Shown here: piece after piece, positions 2,680-16,287 of the stretch
Numbering within the stretch: the first letter of the stretch is position 1
How the letters are laid out: the number at the start of each line of letters is the position of its first letter
Assembly: GCA_029884425.1 (NCBI GenBank)
Contig: JAOUHV010000019.1
Coordinates: 1-45,958 of the forward strand
DNA length: 45,958 nt
From: Gammaproteobacteria bacterium
GTDB lineage: Bacteria; Pseudomonadota; Gammaproteobacteria; S012-40
Reading direction: 5' to 3'
Notes under the pieces: generated by a model
The model's database searches: none
What the model was told of the DNA's origin: nothing
Seen by the model: only the letters and a program-made list of their open reading frames with translations
Translations under genes and position numbers: made by a program

Positions 2680-3951
2680 TTAAATTTGTTGTGAAAAATA
2701 TTCGGCGACAGCATCCAACGACATGGAAATCTGCTCACCCTCGCCGCGCAATGGCTTGATCGCCACTTCGTTTCTGCTCACTTCGTCCTCGCCCAGCAGC
2801 AACGCCCAACGCGCACCGCAACGATCGGCGCGCTTCATCTGCGCCTTGAAACCACCGCCGCCGGCGTTCGCCAGCAAGCGCAGTGCCGGCATGCGATCGC
2901 GCAACTCTTCGGCCAACAACATTCCGCGCTGCTCAGCGACATCCCCCATCATGGCAAGAAATAAATGCGGCTGCCCGGCATCCACCTGCAAACCAACTTC
3001 TTCCATGATCGCTACCAAACGTTCCATGCCCATTGCGAAGCCCACTGCCGGTGTTGGCTTGCCGCCCAGATACGACACCAGCCCGTCAAATCGGCCGCCA
3101 GCGCAAACCGTCCCTTGCGCACCCAGACGATCCGTCACCCATTCAAAAACGGTGCGACTGTAATAATCCAGACCACGCACCAAACGTGGATTAATCTGGT
3201 ACTTCACCTTAGCCGCGTCTAACCGCGCCGTCAAAAGCTGAAAATGCGCGCGCGATTCATCATCCAGATAATCCATCAGCACCGGCGCATTTTGCACCAC
3301 CGCCTGCACTTGTGGATTCTTGCTGTCCAATACGCGCAGGGGATTTCCTTCCAGGCGACGCAAGCTGTCTTCGTCCAGTTGATCCTTGTGCGCACTGAGA
3401 TATTCAACCAGTTTATCGCGATAAACTGCACGCGCTTCAAGCGAGCCCAAACTGTTTATCTGCAGCGTCACATCGTCGAGCAAGCCCAGCATTTTCCACA
3501 GGCGACGCGTCATCAAAATCAGTTCGGCATCAATGTCCGGATCTGCCAGCCCAAACACCTCGACGCCGATTTGGTAAAACTGGCGATAGCGACCTTTTTG
3601 CGGCCGCTCATGGCGGAACATCGGACCTTTGTACCACAACCGCTGAGTCTGGTTGTGCAACATGCCATTTTCTATCGCCGCACGAACACAGCCCGCCGTA
3701 CCTTCGGGACGCAAGGTGAGATTGTCACCGTTGCGGTCTTCAAAGGTGTACATTTCCTTTTCAACGATGTCCGTTACCTCGCCAATCGAGCGCTTGAACA
3801 ACTCGGTTTTTTCGACGACAGGCAGACGAATTTCCTGGTAACCATAGTTATCAAGCACGCGCCCGACCACTGACTCCAAGTGGTGCCAATAGGGCATATG
3901 CTCCGGCAGGATGTCGTGCATCCCGCGAATGGATTTGATTTGATTTGACAA
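2680..3951 (-). CDS. hisS: Histidyl-tRNA synthetase
   Basis: Class II aminoacyl-tRNA synthetase that charges tRNA-His. Visible family motifs are the N-terminal IRGMHDILP, motif 2 ([19 protein letters not shown]), the histidine-A motif [15 protein letters not shown], motif 3 around GFAMGMERL, and an anticodon-binding domain at the C-terminus. The open frame extends to a GTG at 3972 with no ribosome site. I prefer the TTG at 3951: GGAG lies 6 nt upstream and the product (423 aa, [11 protein letters not shown]) aligns with E. coli HisS (424 aa). rodZ lies upstream across a gap that holds a perfect inverted repeat. ispG, often found here, is absent. Confidence 0.95.
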
Positions 3952-7101: not shown

Positions 7102-7426
7102 ACGCCACGGTGCTATTTCGTTGATCGATCAAGACAAACTGTGACCCAAGTCCAATAAATTCCCTTATCCCCATCCCGGATAGGCCGATTAAAGCACTGG
7201 AATAATAGGCAAATACGACCTGGCAGAGCGTTGTTTTAACTGGGTTTTATTGAAATACCCAACTCTGTTAATGGTTCGTTAATCTGTTTTTTGGGATAAT
7301 ACCCCAGCAATTTTATACCTATTTTAAAAGGTTTGGAGCGCCTTCACTCCGCACAGGTCCGCCTTGCGCAGTAAAGGATTATCAAGTAGCTTACACGGGT
7401 TTAGCGATAGAGCCAGAGTGTTGACT
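7102..7426. other. Noncoding region between divergent ndk and lipoprotein gene
   Basis: This stretch is AT-rich around 7200-7330. It must hold the promoter of the plus-strand lipoprotein gene. The candidates GATAAT (7295-7300) and TATACC (7315-7320) lack a good -35 box. I saw no RNA gene and no match to a known riboswitch consensus that I can recall. Confidence 0.4.
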
Positions 7427-9874
7427 ATGTACAAAAACCTCAGCGTCCTGAGTCTGCTTGCCCCACTACTGCTAGCGGGTTGTGGTGCGGCCAATCTGGG
7501 TGATCCTTCACAGGACGCCAACGGCGATGTTACGCCCCCACAACTGACAGCGATCATCATCAATGCCCAACCAGCCGTCGGCGGCAACAAGACCTTGGAT
7601 GGCGTCAATCTGGATCACGTCACCTTCGTCTTCGACGAGGCCATTGACATCGCTCAGCTCAAAGACTCCAACAATGTCCTTGTGGGCGGTACAAACACTG
7701 TCTCCATCAACGGTACCCCCACGACGCTCGTCGGCAACTGGGAATATGACGACACCAGTTTTATGCTGACGTTCAAGCCAACCAATTCACTCTTAGGAAA
7801 TAACGCAATGGGCGCCGTGATGCTATCTAAAAAGGTTGCCGACCTGGCCGGCAACCTCTACAACGACGGCAGCCAAAATCTGGTAGATCGCGCGCTTTTC
7901 GCCACACTCAAAACCCTGGAAGTTACCGTTAGCGTCAATGGACTACTGCCCGCCGGCGCCAACGTCACCGTCACCAACAAGACTCTTAGCAATCTGGCTG
8001 ACACCCTCACTTTCACTGCGGCTGCCAACAGCGCCACGTTTACCAACGTCCCGGTCATCAATGGCCAAACTTACATAGTTGAAGTCAAGAACACCCAGCA
8101 GGTTTGTACCGGCACCGGCACGTTCATCATGGGTTTAACCGCGCCCAGCATCGTCGTAAATTGTTCTGACGTTACTCCGTACTTTGCCAACGCCCCCTAC
8201 TGGAACGACCGTCTTCAGCCCAAAGCTGATCCAAATACTCCTGGCCCCCTCCCCCTCTGCGACAATACCGTCAACTCGGGCTGTTTCCATGGCGGCATCT
8301 ACCGTGTTTACGAAACCAGCAACCTTACTAGTTGCGCTGGCGTCAGTATCACTGATGCCCTGTCTGCATTCACCTGGATCTGTCAGACCAAAGCCGACGG
8401 ATCAGGCATCCAGGCTATTTCCACCGGCTTTGCCGCTGGCAAGGGTCTGCGCGATCTGCTCAATGTGCAAGTCGCCAATCCGATCGAGAACAGTTCAGCG
8501 GCTTGGCGCAGCAACAAAATCACGCTTAAACAGAACAACCAAACCTACAGCAGTGCACTGTCTGTGTGGTGGCCCAACACGATCAACCTGACCAGCAGTA
8601 GTTTGTTGTCTGCAGGTCGCCATGTTTATGTTTACGTTGACATGGGGATTTCACGATTCTCTACCCCCGCAGTCGACAATAACAACATCGGCAGCATCAG
8701 CAACATCAGCTTAGTCATCCCTGCCGGAACGAAACTAGTGGGCAATGTCAATCTGCTCACTCCCCATCTATGGGTTGAGGGCGAATTTATTGGCGCCAGC
8801 AACAATGAAGCTGCGCTCACGCTCGGCAGTACCAACTACGCCATTCTGCACAACATCAGAATTCCCTTCAGCAATGGCAGCGGCATATTACTGGACAACG
8901 CCACCAACACGCGCAGTGGCGGCACAATCAATATTAACAACGCCAATGGCCATGGCCTGCAGATTACTGACGGTAAGTTCAACGCGCTGAGCAATGTGGT
9001 TTTGACCAACAATCTCCAGAATGGCCTATTCATCACCAAGACAGACCAACTTTTCGACGCACAAGTTGACAACATGCTGGAAAATGTTCGTGCGGATAAC
9101 AATGGCGGCAATGGTATCGAGCTGCGCGACACAAAAAATAATCACATTATCCTGAGCACCGCTTCATCCAACGGTGGCGATGGCCTGCGTTTCAGTAAAA
9201 GCAATGCTGCCGCCTTTGGTGCATCATTTAACTACGTGAGCCAATTCACCAGCGTAAACAATGCCGGAGCCGGCATCCGCGCAACAGATAACTTGCTGCT
9301 TAACACCATCAACGGTTCGTTTATCACCCTGAACTCTGGCGGCGGCGTCGTCGCAACAACCGCATTCGCCTATTCGCCACTACGGTTTAACCGCAGCGAA
9401 ATTGCGCATAACGGCACTGGCAACTGCATCATCGACAGTGGCAGTGTTTGCCCCGCCGGCCTCGCTGTCGTCAACCCAGCCAGCATGGCGGATGTGTTCG
9501 TTGGCTCCACCGGGCTCTCCGAGCAGTACGGCAACATCAACTTTGGCATCAACGACGGCAAACGCTGGGTTGGCGGAACCTTTGACCTGAATGCCGACCT
9601 GGGCGGCGGCGAATGCACTACGCAGAGCGAACCGTGCGTTTTGGTGGATTGGAGCCTCAAGGCAAACAGCTCCTTCCCCAGCCAGAACAGCAACAACACC
9701 TTGGCGAAATACGTTGCCGGTTTCGACGACAACAACGTCAATCCTGTTGAGTTCAACTACCAACCTGCCAAAGTCGATCACCTGTACGATGGCCTGGGCA
9801 ACAGCAATGGTTACTGCTCCGTCGGCGAGGTTTGCACGGACGCTCTAACCATCGGTCACTACCAGCGCCCATAG
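7427..9874 (+). CDS. Large lipoprotein with Ig-like and parallel beta-helix regions
   Basis: I do not recognise a specific family. The ATG at 7427 gives an 815-residue protein with a lipoprotein signal (LLAPLLLAGC, Cys19). Residues about 35-165 resemble a bacterial Ig-like (Big_5 type) domain (HVTFVFDEAID... LTFKPTNSLLGNNAMGAVMLSKKVADLAGN). Residues about 455-645 show short repeats of the parallel beta-helix kind (GSGILLDNA, NGHGLQITDG, QNGLFITK, GNGIELRDTKNN, GDGLRFSK, GAGIRATDN). Closely spaced Cys pairs (NSGC near PLC; NCIIDSGSVC; ECTTQSEPC; YCSVGEVC) suggest disulfides outside the cytoplasm. It is Asn/Ser/Gly rich, unlike its neighbours. Such helices occur in carbohydrate-active enzymes, adhesins and surface proteins; no catalytic site could be assigned. 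A longer frame from 7364 exists but lacks a signal at its start. Confidence 0.85.
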   Translation: MYKNLSVLSLLAPLLLAGCGAANLGDPSQDANGDVTPPQLTAIIINAQPAVGGNKTLDGVNLDHVTFVFDEAIDIAQLKDSNNVLVGGTNTVSINGTPTTLVGNWEYDDTSFMLTFKPTNSLLGNNAMGAVMLSKKVADLAGNLYNDGSQNLVDRALFATLKTLEVTVSVNGLLPAGANVTVTNKTLSNLADTLTFTAAANSATFTNVPVINGQTYIVEVKNTQQVCTGTGTFIMGLTAPSIVVNCSDVTPYFANAPYWNDRLQPKADPNTPGPLPLCDNTVNSGCFHGGIYRVYETSNLTSCAGVSITDALSAFTWICQTKADGSGIQAISTGFAAGKGLRDLLNVQVANPIENSSAAWRSNKITLKQNNQTYSSALSVWWPNTINLTSSSLLSAGRHVYVYVDMGISRFSTPAVDNNNIGSISNISLVIPAGTKLVGNVNLLTPHLWVEGEFIGASNNEAALTLGSTNYAILHNIRIPFSNGSGILLDNATNTRSGGTININNANGHGLQITDGKFNALSNVVLTNNLQNGLFITKTDQLFDAQVDNMLENVRADNNGGNGIELRDTKNNHIILSTASSNGGDGLRFSKSNAAAFGASFNYVSQFTSVNNAGAGIRATDNLLLNTINGSFITLNSGGGVVATTAFAYSPLRFNRSEIAHNGTGNCIIDSGSVCPAGLAVVNPASMADVFVGSTGLSEQYGNINFGINDGKRWVGGTFDLNADLGGGECTTQSEPCVLVDWSLKANSSFPSQNSNNTLAKYVAGFDDNNVNPVEFNYQPAKVDHLYDGLGNSNGYCSVGEVCTDALTIGHYQRP

Positions 9875-9940: not shown

Positions 9941-10135
9941 TTAATCGCGTTCGCCAATCCACGCCATCTGAATGGCTTCGAGAATTTTCTCACCTGAGCG
10001 CTCAGGCTGATCATCAAATTCCTCTAACTCACACACCCAGGCATGCAAATCGGTAAACCGCACAAAACGCGGATCAACGTCGGGATATTTTTCATCCAGC
10101 GCAATCGCTATTTCCAACGAGTCTGTCCAGTTCAT
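9941..10135 (-). CDS. iscX: IscX, Fe-S cluster assembly regulator/adaptor
   Basis: Small acidic protein of 64 residues (MNWTDSLEIAIALDEKYPDV...), nearly the same length as E. coli IscX (66). It has the family segments VRFTDLHAWVCELEEF and NEKILEAI-like SGEKILEAIQMAW. IscX binds IscS and modulates cysteine desulfurase activity. The ATG at 10135, 7 bp after the fdx stop, is the family start; a longer frame from 10207 would overlap fdx. It is the last gene of the isc operon, 18 bp before the terminator. Confidence 0.92.
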   Translation of the reverse strand: MNWTDSLEIAIALDEKYPDVDPRFVRFTDLHAWVCELEEFDDQPERSGEKILEAIQMAWIGERD

Positions 10136-10142
10136 AAGCCCT

Positions 10143-10481
10143 CTAGTGACGCTCCGATACCATGTTGATCGTATACTTGGGAATCTCGACCACCAGATCG
10201 TGATCACCCACCTTCGCCTGACAACTCAAACGGGAGTCTGGGTCCAAGCCCCAAGCCTTGTCGAGCAAATCCTCTTCTGTCTCGGTGGCTTCGTTCAAGG
10301 AATTCATTCCCTCACGAATATAGACATGACAGGTTGTGCAAGCGCAGGATTTCTCACAAGCATGCTCGATATCCACGTCATTTTTCAACAATACATCGCA
10401 AATGGTTTCGCCTTTTTCGGCCTGAACCACTGTGCCATTGGGACACAATTCCTCGTGTGGCAACACAATAATCTGCGGCAT
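10143..10481 (-). CDS. fdx: Isc-type [2Fe-2S] ferredoxin
   Basis: Electron donor for Fe-S cluster assembly. The 112-residue product has cluster ligands at Cys42, Cys48, Cys51 and Cys87 ([11 protein letters not shown] ... LSCQAK), the same numbering as E. coli Fdx. An extra Cys46 is also present. It starts 2 bp after the hscA stop, so translation is probably coupled. It lies between hscA and iscX as in the standard isc operon. Confidence 0.96.
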
Positions 10482-10483
10482 AA

Positions 10484-12355
10484 CTACCCTCTAAATTCTT
10501 CGAGCTTGTGCCCAGCCAAGGCTTTTTGAATATTCGAATTCATGCGGCGCGCAACATAGTCTGCACAGACCCGCTCCACGTCAACAATCGCAGCCTTAAT
10601 CGCATCAGCATTGCTGCCGGCGCGTTGTGCAATTAGCGCAGCCAGTGCAGCATCAATTTGCTGCCGCTCATCGGCGCTCAGCAATCGCTCACCATCCTCG
10701 GCCAGCGCCGAGGTCAATGCTTCAATTTCGCGATCGGCCTCAACCTGTTGTTCCCGCAATTTGCGTTGTTGCATGTCTTCCGCCGCATGGGCAAAAGAAT
10801 CACGCAGCATGGTTTCGATTTCACTGTCCGTCAAACCATACGACGGCTTGACCACGATGCTTGCCTCTACACCACTAATCATCTCGCGCGCACTGACGCC
10901 TAGCAAACCATCGGCATCCACCTGAAAGGTCACACGAATACGCGCCGCACCCGCCACCATCGGCGGAATACCGCGCAATTCAAATCGCGCCAGTGAGCGA
11001 CAATCCCCCACTGTTTCGCGCTCGCCTTGCAGCACATGCACCGCCAGGGCGGTTTGGCCGTCTTTAAACGTGGTAAATTCCTGGGCCCGCGCCACTGGAA
11101 TGGTGGTATTGCGGGGAATAATTTTTTCCACCAAACCACCCATGGTTTCAAGTCCCAGCGACAAGGGAATCACATCGAGCAGCAACATTTCCTCATCAGA
11201 CTTGTTGCCCACCAGCACGTCGGCTTGCAGCGCAGCACCAATGGCCACCACTTTATCCGGATCAATATTGACCAGAGCATCGCGACCAAAAAACTCACGC
11301 ACTGCTTCGCGAACAGCCAGCACCCGCGTTGAACCACCCACCAAAACCACTTCTGCAATTTCGTCCTTGCTCACACCTGCATCACGCAGCGCACGACGAC
11401 ACGGAGCCAGCGTCTTTTTGATCAACGGCTCAATCAACTGATTTAACTGCACACGCGTCAATTCACCTTGCCAGGAAAATTCCGCCAGTTGCAACGAAAT
11501 TGGCGCAACAGCAACATCGGTCAGCATTTCTTTCACGGCGCGCGCCTGCTGCAACACCAAGCGCATCAACTGATGACCTTCATCACCTTTGATACCCGCT
11601 TGCTGCATAATCCACTGCGCCACCAGCCTGTCCATGTCATCACCACCCAGCGCAGAATCGCCACCAGTGGCCAACACTTCAAACACGCCTTTGTTCAAAC
11701 GCAGAATGGAAATATCAAACGTACCGCCGCCCAAGTCGTAGACAGCAATCACGCCCTCGGCACGGGTATCCAAACCATAAGCGACTGCCGCTGCGGTGGG
11801 CTCGTTCAACAAACGCAGCACATTCAAACCCGCCAGCTTCGCCGCATCCTTGGTCGCATGACGCTGCGCTTCATCAAAATAAGCCGGCACAGTTATCACT
11901 ACGCCAACCAAATCGCCGCCGAGTGTTTGCTCCGCACGTTCGCGCAACTGATTGAGAATGGTCGCCGACACTTCGACCGGACTAACATCGCCGGCCACGG
12001 TGCGAATTCGCAACATGCCACTTTCGCCGGACAATAATTCATAAGGCGGCTGTTCACCCAGCGTCACAACATCATCCAGTCCACGCCCCATGAAGCGTTT
12101 CACCGATGCAATCGTGTTTAGCGGGTCCTGAACAGCGACGGCCAATGCCTCGTGGCCCACGGTCGTTTGACCTGCTGCGTAGTGCACCACCGAGGGCAAA
12201 ATATGCCGCCCAGTCGCATCAGGCAAGGTTTCGGCAACGCCGCTGCGCACACTCGCCACCAACGAATTGGTGGTTCCCAAGTCGATGCCCGCAGCCAATT
12301 TGCGCTGGTGCGGAACCGCGCTTTGTCCTGGTTCAGAGATTTGCAGTAATGCCAT
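10484..12355 (-). CDS. hscA: Fe-S chaperone HscA (specialised Hsp70)
   Basis: HscA is the Hsp70 that, with HscB, releases clusters from the IscU scaffold. The 623-residue product has the Hsp70 nucleotide-binding signatures GIDLGTTNS (residues 23-30), [12 protein letters not shown] and VLVGGSTRV, then a substrate-binding beta domain and a helical lid. The length is near E. coli HscA (616). hscB lies 14 bp upstream and fdx 2 bp downstream. Its known client, IscU, is not encoded in the operon. Confidence 0.96.
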
Positions 12356-12369
12356 GAGGTAAACCGTAT

Positions 12370-12906
12370 TTATTCGTCTAACTGAGCCTCGACCTGCTCA
12401 GCATCGTGTTTTAATTTGCTAAAGAATTGTAGTTTACGAACATTCAGCGCAACCCGCTGCAGTGCAGCATCGCTGTTTTCTTCAAAACCTGCACTCAACT
12501 CTTTGTGCAGTTGACGCTCCCTGGCATCAATCTGCTCGAGCAGCGTCTGCACTTGATCCGTACTGCCAGCCATTGCTGCATCATCCAATGCTTCGCGCAA
12601 CTCCATCTGTTCCATCAAAAACGCCGGCGCCATATTGGCATTGCTTTCGATTTGCACATCAACGCCTCGCAACCCCAGCAGATAGACCGATCGCAACAAT
12701 GGAGATTTCAGGGTGTTGTAGGCATCGTTTATCCGTGCTGCATGTTGCACGGACAGGCGGCGCTCTTTTTCAGAAGAATTGGCAAAACGATCAGGGTGCA
12801 AGGCGCGCTGAACCGCGCGATAATTTTCGCTGAGCACAGCGACATCCAAGTCAAAGCTGGCAGAAACACCTAACAGCTCAAAATAATTTTTCTCGTGCTG
12901 TATCAT
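12370..12906 (-). CDS. hscB: Fe-S co-chaperone HscB (J-domain protein)
   Basis: HscB brings IscU to HscA and stimulates its ATPase. The 178-residue product has an N-terminal J domain with the HPD motif at residues 37-39 (RALHPDRFA). The C-terminal three-helix domain contains the hydrophobic IscU-binding face ([13 protein letters not shown]). Length matches the family (E. coli 171). It lies between iscA and hscA. Retention of an apparently intact IscU-binding surface argues that an IscU exists elsewhere in the genome. Confidence 0.95.
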
Positions 12907-12918
12907 CGATAAATCGAA

Positions 12919-13241
12919 TTAAACGGTGAAGCTTTCGCCACAGCCACACTCGCCGGCGACGTTAGGATTGTTGAATTTGAAACCTTCATTCAACCCCTCT
13001 TGGCAAAATCCAGCTCGGTACCGTCGATGTACAGCAGGCTTTTCTTATCGACGATGACATTCACGCCATAACTTTCAAAGACTTCATCCGTCTCTTCCAC
13101 CTGATCGACAAACTCCAGCACATACGCCATACCGGAACAGCCGCTAGGCTTAACGCCCAAACGTAAGCCCACGCCTTTGCCACGATTGGTGAGAAATTTC
13201 TTTACCCGCTCAGCAGCGGCAACCGTCATTGTCACAGCCAT
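12919..13241 (-). pseudogene. iscA: iscA with one-base frameshift (or sequencing error)
   Basis: IscA is an A-type Fe-S carrier that uses Cys35, Cys99 and Cys101. The first 82 or so residues are well conserved ([23 protein letters not shown] with Cys35). The frame then breaks near 12996-13000: AAGAGGGGTTGA gives a stop at residue 84. Adding one base restores [12 protein letters not shown] followed by [11 protein letters not shown] and a stop at 12919, which is 107 residues, the same as E. coli. The two C-terminal Cys ligands are therefore out of frame. The break lies next to a run of four G, so a homopolymer read error is possible. GGAGGT precedes the ATG. If real, the product is an 83-residue truncated protein. 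Confidence 0.85.
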
Positions 13242-13254
13242 AACTTTACCTCCG

Positions 13255-14472
13255 TTAATGATGTGCCGCCCACTGTACAGAATTCAGATCAATACCTTCC
13301 TTGTACATATCCCACAATGGCGACATATCCCGCAATTTGGCCACTTTTTCACGCACCAGTTTTACGGTGTAATCAACTTCTTCGGCGGTCGTAAAGCGAC
13401 CGATAGTGAAACGAATCGAGCTGTGCGCCAGTTCATCGCTGCGACCCAAGGCACGCAGCACGTAGGATGGCTCCAAGCTGGATGAAGTACAGGCTGAACC
13501 GGAAGATACCGCGATATCTTTGAGCGCCATGATCAGCGATTCGCCTTCGACAAAATTAAAACTCACGTTCAAATTGCCGGGAATGCGCTGCTCCATATCG
13601 CCGTTGACATAGATTTCTTCCAGGTCTTTGATGCCATTCCACAGGCGGTCACGCAGTGCTGTAATGTGAGTGTTATCCTTGGCCATTTCTTCTTTGGCCA
13701 ATCGAAATGCTTCGCCCATACCAACGATCTGATGCGTTGGCAGCGTACCCGAGCGCAAACCACGCTCGTGACCTCCGCCGTGCATTTGCGCTTCCAAACG
13801 CACCCGTGGTTTACGACGCACGTACAGCGCACCAATGCCTTTCGGGCCATAAATTTTATGTGCGGAAAAAGACATCAGATCCACTTTCATGGTTTCCATG
13901 TCGATCTCTACCTTGCCCGCACTTTGCGCGCCATCAACATGGAAAATGATGCCGCGAGAACGCGTCATTTCGCCAATCGCGCGAATATCCTGTACCACAC
14001 CAATTTCGTTATTGACGTGCATGATGGACACCAGCACAGTGTCGTCACGCATCGCGGCTTCAAGCTTGTTCAGGTCGATCAAGCCGCTGGCTTCGGGCTC
14101 AAGATAGGTTACTTCAAAACCTTCGCGCTCCAACTGGCGGCAGGTATCCAAAACCGCTTTGTGCTCGGTTTTGCAGGTGATGATGTGCTTGCCTTTTTTG
14201 CGATAGAACTGGGCTGCGCCCTTGATCGCCAAGTTGTCTGATTCGGTTGCGCCAGAAGTCCAAACAATTTCACGCGGATCGGCATTAATCAGATCAGCGA
14301 CATTTTTACGAGCGGTTTCCACCGCTTCGTCAGCCGCCCAGCCAAATGCATGTGAGCGCGACGCAGGGTTACCAAACTGGCCATCCAGCGTCAGGTATTC
14401 CATCATTTTTTTTGCGACACGCGGATCAACTGGCGTTGTTGCAGAATAATCCAGATAGATTGGCAACTTCAT
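13255..14472 (-). CDS. iscS: Cysteine desulfurase IscS
   Basis: PLP enzyme that converts cysteine to alanine and passes persulfide sulfur to scaffold and tRNA-thiolation partners. The 405-residue product matches E. coli IscS in key positions: His104, the PLP Lys206 ([12 protein letters not shown]), the active Cys328 ([14 protein letters not shown]) and the C-terminal tail [17 protein letters not shown] that docks partners. It lies 13 bp before iscA, where iscU would normally intervene. A second desulfurase lies 29 bp upstream. Confidence 0.97.
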
Positions 14473-14501: not shown

Positions 14502-15644
14502 CTAAACCAACACTGCCGACAGGGAACGCAGCATGGAGATTTGCTGCTGCAGCGCCTGTAAAAAAGCATGAATGTCGTCAGCACTGGTTGCCCGCCCTAA
14601 ACTGACGCGGATCGCGCCACGAGCGATGTCTTTTTCAACCCCCATGGCCATCAGCACATGCGAAGGTTGTTCACTTTTGCTGGCACAGGCTGAACCGCTC
14701 GATACGGCAAAACCTGCCAGATCCAAATTCATTAGTAGCGTTTCACCGTCAATGCCGGCAACGCTGAAAAAACTGGTGTTAGGTAAGCGGTCTGCATGTC
14801 TGGCAAAAACCACCACGCCGCCAAGTTGCATCAACCCTTGCTCGAGCTGATCGCGCAACTGTTGTAACCGCGTCATTTGTTGCAAATTCGCTTTGGCGAT
14901 TTCCGCCGCCTTGCCAAAACCGACAATGGCCGCAACATTTTCCGTCCCTGACCGCAGCCCTTTTTCCTGACCACCGCCGTAAATTTGCGGTTCCAGCTTT
15001 AGCTGCTTGTCCATCACCAAGGCACCAACACCTTTGGGACCATAAATCTTGTGCGCCGATAGCGTCATCATCTGCACGCCCAGGCCACGAAAATCGACGG
15101 GAATTTTGCCCAGCGCCTGCACTGCATCGGTGTGCACTACCGCTCCGTGCGCTCGCGCCAAGACCGCGATTTCCTGCACCTGCTGCAACACGCCCGTTTC
15201 GTTGTTGGCCAGCATCACCGACAACAACCCCAAGCCTTGTTGCAATGACGTCCGCAGCGCAGACTGGCGCAACAAACCATCGGGACCGGTTGCCAGCTCG
15301 TCAAACCGCACACCCTGGCGCTGCAATGCGTAGCACGCTTCCAGCACCGCAGGATGTTCAATCGCGCTACAGGCAATGTGCGAAAAGCCCATGCCGCGCG
15401 CGCATCCCAGAATAGCCAGACTGTTCGCCTCGCTGCCACCACTGGTAAACACCACCTGCGAAGGATGTGCATTCACCAACGCAGCAACCTGTTCACGGGC
15501 CACATCCATCGCGGCGCGGGCTTGTCGCCCTGGCGCATGGACCGCTGACGGATTGGCACTGAGCGTTTGCAAAAACGGCAACATCGCCTCCAACACCAAC
15601 GAATCCACCGGCGTTGTCGCGTTGTAATCCAGGTAAACCGTCAT
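14502..15644 (-). CDS. Second cysteine desulfurase (NifS/IscS-like, class V aminotransferase)
   Basis: The 380-residue PLP protein is clearly related to IscS but distinct from it. Seen residues are His97, the PLP Lys199 ([12 protein letters not shown]) and the active Cys320 ([15 protein letters not shown]). It lacks the C-terminal IscS tail that binds partner proteins. It lies 30 bp after iscR and 29 bp before iscS, so it belongs to the operon. It could supply sulfur for Fe-S assembly with a different partner from IscS. The paralogy is clear; the specific role is not. Confidence 0.93.
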
Positions 15645-15674: not shown

Positions 15675-16157
15675 TTAGCTGTTTACCGCCGCCTGTTGTG
15701 CGTTACCTTCACCATTGATCACGCGCTCTTTTTGGCGCAGTGCCACTTCCTGCACACCGCGATTGGCTACCAATTTGCCCAGCGTGATGTTATTCAGGAA
15801 ACTCTGGATCTGGCCACTCAAGTCGCACCACAGTTCGTGGGTAAGACAGTTGCCGTCACCCTGGCAGTTGCCCTTGCCGGCGCAACGGGTCACGTCAATG
15901 CTCTCATCCACAGCGGCAATCACTTCAGCGATGGAAATCTCGTCGGAACCACGGCTCAGACGGTAACCACCGCCAGGACCACGGGCGCTGTCCACCAGGC
16001 CGCGCTTACGCAGCTTGGAAAACAACTGCTCCAGGTAGGACAAAGAGATCCCCTGACGCTTGGAAATATCCGACAGAGTGATCGGACCTTCGTTGTAGTT
16101 AATTGCCAGATCCAGCATTGCGGTGACCGCGTAGCGGCCTTTTGTCGTCAATCGCAT
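15675..16157 (-). CDS. iscR: Fe-S responsive transcription regulator IscR (Rrf2 family)
   Basis: IscR carries a [2Fe-2S] cluster and represses the isc operon when clusters are plentiful. The ATG at 16157 gives [18 protein letters not shown], the family N-terminus, and a 160-residue protein. The winged helix includes [19 protein letters not shown]. Cluster ligands Cys92, Cys98, Cys104 and His107 are all present at the E. coli positions. An in-frame ATG at 16193 would add 12 residues that are not family-like. It is the first gene of the isc operon and has a type-1-like IscR site in its promoter. Confidence 0.96.
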
Positions 16158-16210: not shown

Positions 16211-16239
16211 ATTGTTGCTTATCTGACTAAACTTGTCAA
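16211..16239 (-). promoter_or_regulatory. Promoter of the isc operon
   Basis: On the minus strand TTGACA (16239-16234) is followed after 17 bp by AACAAT (16216-16211). The start point would fall near 16204, about 47 nt before the iscR ATG. The -35 box matches consensus; the -10 box is weak, as is usual for regulated promoters. Confidence 0.6.
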
Positions 16240-16242
16240 TTT
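16218..16242 (-). promoter_or_regulatory. IscR type-1-like binding site
   Basis: On the minus strand TTGACAAGTTTAGTCAGATA fits the E. coli type-1 pattern (YYGACTRWWWYAGTCRRSTAT) at nearly all conserved positions, including GAC and AGTC half sites with proper spacing. It overlaps the -35 box and spacer of the isc promoter, consistent with autorepression by [2Fe-2S]-IscR. The match is by eye to a remembered consensus. Confidence 0.6.
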
Positions 16243-16287
16243 TTTAACCCTTCGAGTTCAAGTGAAATTAAACCCGATTCTTCGCAC

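Follow-up and report, generated by a model that had tools for sequence, protein, structure and literature searches.

A gammaproteobacterial isc operon that keeps iscS, hscB and hscA and has no iscU raises the question of where its scaffold protein is encoded. In iron-sulfur cluster assembly, IscU accepts sulfur from IscS and is also the client of the HscA/HscB chaperone pair, which acts on its LPPVK motif; the isc operon is commonly viewed as one co-transcribed, self-regulated unit. In the stretch of 45,958 nucleotides analysed here (hereafter the window), iscS and iscA stand almost side by side at the place where iscU is expected, for which a preliminary description offered three explanations, namely that iscU had moved elsewhere, that another scaffold had taken over, or that the assembly had lost the gene. 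We found that the window operon truly lacks iscU, and that iscU has been relocated to another part of the chromosome, where it adjoins a duplicated regulator gene.

The isc operon of the window

The operon lies on the minus strand next to cysE, in the order iscR-nfs1-iscS-iscA-hscB-hscA-fdx-iscX. The genes iscR, iscS, hscB, hscA, fdx and iscX are contiguous on this single strand, and their products all scored above the cut-offs of the respective NCBIfam models. The Rrf2 regulator IscR (15675–16157; TIGR02010, 211.4 bits) carries three cluster-ligand cysteines and the CLTH motif, and is followed by nfs1 (14502–15644), which encodes a second NifS/IscS-like cysteine desulfurase (top NCBIfam match TIGR03402, 426 bits, under the equivalog cut-off), and by a bona fide iscS (13255–14472; TIGR02006, 773.9 bits). 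Beyond iscA come the J-type co-chaperone gene hscB (12370–12906; TIGR00714), the Hsp70-type chaperone gene hscA (10484–12355; TIGR01991, 904.5 bits), the ISC ferredoxin gene fdx (10143–10481; TIGR02007) and iscX (9941–10135; TIGR03412). Compared with the standard iscRSUA-hscBA-fdx-iscX operon of E. coli and Pseudomonas, the components are shared and so is the order save for iscU, and the cysE/trmJ/suhB neighbours are those of Pseudomonas isc loci. As in the standard operon, an IscR with cluster ligands is encoded behind a type-1-like IscR box; unlike the standard operon, the window has an extra NifS-like desulfurase before iscS and no operonic iscU, which is found at a distant locus instead.

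The junction between iscS and iscA (13242–13254, minus strand) consists of 13 bp, CGGAGGTAAAGTT on the coding strand, and holds the GGAGG Shine-Dalgarno sequence of iscA, whose start is at 13241, and nothing more. Both the 13-bp spacing and the absence of any IscU-like protein from the window had been reported in the preliminary description and held on inspection. The description was otherwise correct, but iscA, which it also listed, is not intact: the truncated minus-strand gene (12990–13241) reached 121.8 bits against TIGR02011, below the cut-off of 150.6; its frame breaks at about 12996–13000 (LDFAK, then RG and a stop), and the C-terminal CGCGESF resumes in another frame (window 12917–13241). 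The iscA frame is open in all eight other family genomes compared, and the break, which is confined to this genome, could stem from an error in the sequence or from a recent mutation or loss.

The relocated iscU locus

The genome carrying the window (2.9 Mb in 89 contigs, 98.4% complete, 1.5% contaminated) was searched with PF01592 (NifU_N/IscU), a whole-genome search that the preliminary description had called for, and a single protein was found, encoded on contig C9 at 63120–63494. It scored 227.6 bits against the IscU model TIGR01999 (cut-off 192.4 bits) and aligned without gaps to E. coli IscU over 126 residues, with all cluster ligands and cysteines and the LPPVK motif kept. The C9 protein is thus collinear with IscU over its full length (compare E. 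coli IscU, PDB 2L4X and 3LVL), and differs from it in a short C-terminal extension, while the gene has another genomic place and another promoter. The gene order on C9 is rsmE-iscR2-iscU-speE, so the first of the three explanations, a move of iscU, was borne out. Contamination is an unlikely source of C9, given its base composition near that of the window (GC 0.51 vs 0.55; trinucleotide r = 0.93, the closest profile among those compared) and the family's own gene order around iscU.

Viewed in isolation, an operon without iscU would suit a replacement of IscU by another scaffold, whether SufB/SufBCD, NifU, SufU or IscA alone. The genome, however, encodes a bona fide IscU as its sole PF01592 protein, the search for SufU/NifU domains yielded no second U-type scaffold, and a search that recovered all 14 controls detected no SufB/SufD core protein in the genome. 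With a true IscU present and these others missing, the second explanation finds no support, and we regard such a replacement as highly improbable. Contig C49 encodes an additional member of the IscA/ErpA/NfuA domain family.

Conservation within the family and across Gammaproteobacteria

Close relatives, with which the preliminary description had proposed to compare the operon, showed the same arrangement. The order rsmE-iscR2-iscU-speE was present in 8/8 family genomes in which a relocated iscU was located (G000, which carries the window, and G001, G002, G003, G005, G007, G008 and G011), and in these eight as well as in G009 the iscS-iscA gap measures 13–36 bp and contains no iscU, giving eight other family genomes with the iscU-less junction; G009 is 67% complete, and no iscU was found in its partial assembly. 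Within the family, genus g5 (G004 and G010) retains the standard iscS-iscU-iscA order. In two further family members, G006 and G012, no match to HscB was obtained and a SufU-like protein is present; a SufS-SufU fusion considered in G006 was ruled out, as the two are encoded in separate frames.

We then surveyed 232 evenly sampled gammaproteobacterial genomes, 99 of them with HscA, by comparing the positions of iscU and hscA and subsequently reading the loci. An iscS-iscA junction without iscU was present in 13 of the 99 HscA-bearing genomes sampled, from 9 families (G000, G005, G068, G084, G101, G102, G140, G151, G176, G188, G197, G208 and G234). One of these, G084, is a closed 2.92-Mb chromosome whose sole IscU gene lies 1.8 Mb from hscA. 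Two loci cut by contig ends (G135 and G125) were not counted, five apparent splits (G175, G124, G161, G082 and G159) look like contig breaks and were rejected, and in G139, G152 and G174 the operon is split at points other than iscU. Three genomes, G048, G228 and G238, carry iscU twice, once in the operon and once paired with an iscR-like gene elsewhere, and a second iscU is also present in G092, G105, G123 and G199.

The third explanation, that iscU was collapsed or mis-joined at 13242–13254 and that C9 carries the displaced operon gene or derives from another organism binned with this genome, draws on the fragmentation of the genome into 89 contigs and on the frame break in the adjoining iscA, which the eight other family genomes do not share. 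Against it, the same junction recurs in those eight genomes and in further families, among them the closed chromosome of G084, and C9 has both the family's gene order and, of those compared, the trinucleotide profile closest to that of the window. Loss of iscU by the assembly is therefore refuted as an account of the junction, and an artefact of this kind would be very surprising. Found in at least nine families of Gammaproteobacteria, the iscU split is a real operon variant and not an assembly error.

IscR2 and IscR boxes

In the family and in the survey loci, the relocated iscU is usually preceded by an IscR paralogue. In the window's genome, the iscR2 product belongs to the Rrf2 family (PF02082, 110.7 vs 30 bits) and conserves the SYLEQLF helix-turn-helix region. 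IscR is its nearest model, but unlike IscR it falls below the TIGR02010 cut-off (136.7 vs 207.55 bits) and has lost the set of three cysteines and one histidine that ligates the [2Fe-2S] cluster. The three cysteines and CLTH were present in 23/24 operon IscRs checked; the remaining one (L071) was not scored, its segment being out of register and ending before the motif was complete. Among the pair-associated IscRs, the full ligand set is missing in 21 of 27 and kept in six (L129, L132, L134, L136, L137 and L224). Binding of IscR to type-1 sites depends on its cluster in E. coli and P. aeruginosa, and the cluster-less E. coli variant IscR(C92A) retains binding to type-2 sites (PMC12594620, PMC6599224). 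By sequence, IscR2 resembles this variant (PMC12594620), and from the missing ligands and the behaviour of cluster-less IscR in these two species it is predicted to act independently of cluster status.

Type-1 boxes were scored against the E. coli consensus (PMC6599224) with a match threshold of 19/25. The box 5' of iscR in the window (16219–16243, minus strand, AAAATTGACAAGTTTAGTCAGATAA) matches 19/25 positions (p = 0.005 vs dinucleotide shuffles). A type-1-like box at or above the threshold was found in 18/22 upstream regions of iscR2-iscU units vs 4/67 control promoters (suhB, rsmE, speE, cysE and trmJ; Mann-Whitney p = 1e-8), a comparison in which the genomes are partly related and not independent and the box overlaps a −35-like TTGAC. 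No good type-1-like box was detected upstream of iscR2-iscU in G003, G101 and G140, and type-2 IscR sites were not enriched upstream of iscR2 (combined p = 0.24). These boxes are most simply read as sites through which the cluster-bearing IscR would act in trans on the two loci.

These observations suggest how the pathway may operate. The isc pathway is complete and spread over two loci: the iscR2-iscU unit provides the IscU scaffold, and the window operon supplies the sulfur donor, the carrier, the chaperones and the ferredoxin. IscU would have its usual partners, IscS and HscA/HscB; IscS would presumably pass sulfur to it in the standard way, and HscA/HscB would presumably act on the LPPVK motif seen in the C9 protein. 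The type-1-like boxes upstream of both loci would allow co-repression in trans by the cluster-bearing IscR, and IscR2, devoid of cluster ligands, could modulate the iscU unit without responding to a cluster, so that the IscU dose would be set by a separate promoter and a separate regulator. We consider it probable that the isc pathway is split in this way, with a duplicate iscR-iscU having taken over, the operon iscU deleted and the two loci co-regulated through IscR boxes.

Relocation might also be a form of operon decay that is selectively neutral and has no bearing on regulation, as the stand-alone iscU of family f91, which sits beside sat with no IscR partner found, would allow; the IscR-like partner gene in most cases, the conservation of its order with iscU across genera and the IscR-like boxes speak against this account, which we regard as unlikely. 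The two f91 loci are L212 in G102 (iscU at 3453–3839), in which iscU adjoins the sulfate adenylyltransferase gene sat on the same strand, and L211 in G208. Coming back to the split pathway with shared regulation, we also entertain, tentatively, the broader idea that it represents a recurrent two-locus ISC architecture in which IscU supply has passed under a cluster-blind IscR paralogue and its dose is set by a signal other than cluster status.

Route and number of origins

Most likely, a copy of iscR-iscU arose at a second site and became the working copy, and a clean deletion then removed the operon iscU. This route by duplication and loss is favoured by the genomes with both iscU copies, which resemble intermediates. 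Alternatively, and as regards the route only, iscU may have moved directly beside an existing IscR paralogue, or an iscR2-iscU cassette may have been gained horizontally. Consistent with this, extra IscR-like genes without iscU occur in G046, G047, G055 and G013, no iscR2-iscU stands beside rsmE in other families or in G004, and holding the 21 iscU-less operons together as one clade lowers the fit to the IscS tree (AU p = 0.028); conversely, the retention of both copies in G048, G228 and G238 is what duplication would predict, and the IscU tree, with too few columns and 42/83 inner branches open, does not distinguish a duplicate from a direct move and so favours neither route. Direct movement or cassette gain is accordingly a possibility that we keep in view, though a somewhat doubtful one.

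The IscS tree requires several changes among these 21 operons. A single origin of all of them was weakly rejected by the same AU test, which points to several origins or to differential loss after an old duplication, whereas one origin within the family was not rejected (p = 0.51). IscR-like genes without a neighbouring iscU (L121–L126) were also noted in G046, G047, G055, G013, G010 and G045.

Implications and further observations

With the split present in 13/99 sampled HscA-bearing genomes, operon-based annotation would score iscU as missing where it is in fact encoded elsewhere. The split also means that the IscU dose can be set separately from the remaining ISC components, and the natural sets of species with split, double and standard arrangements offer a means of testing whether IscU stoichiometry needs IscR feedback. 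We found no description of the iscU-split arrangement in the open literature, of which the large Fe-S phylogenomic surveys were perhaps only partly covered; the parts are all known, and the arrangement appears to be a new, largely unremarked variant, with priority not established.

Several features were seen beside the split itself. In G004, contig C116 (L066) carries a second isc-like cluster, iscS-iscU-iscA-hscA-fdx, which has a divergent IscU and no hscB match, in addition to the standard IscU of that genome. The NifS-like nfs1 (14502–15644) that precedes iscS in the window occupies the same position in most family members, and nfs1-like genes are also present in betaproteobacterial and other loci (Azoarcus, Thauera, Methylotenera and Muproteobacteria). 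Adjoining the isc operon, positions 7364–9874 of the window encode a large protein predicted to be secreted, which starts like a lipoprotein and contains repeats resembling a right-handed beta-helix.
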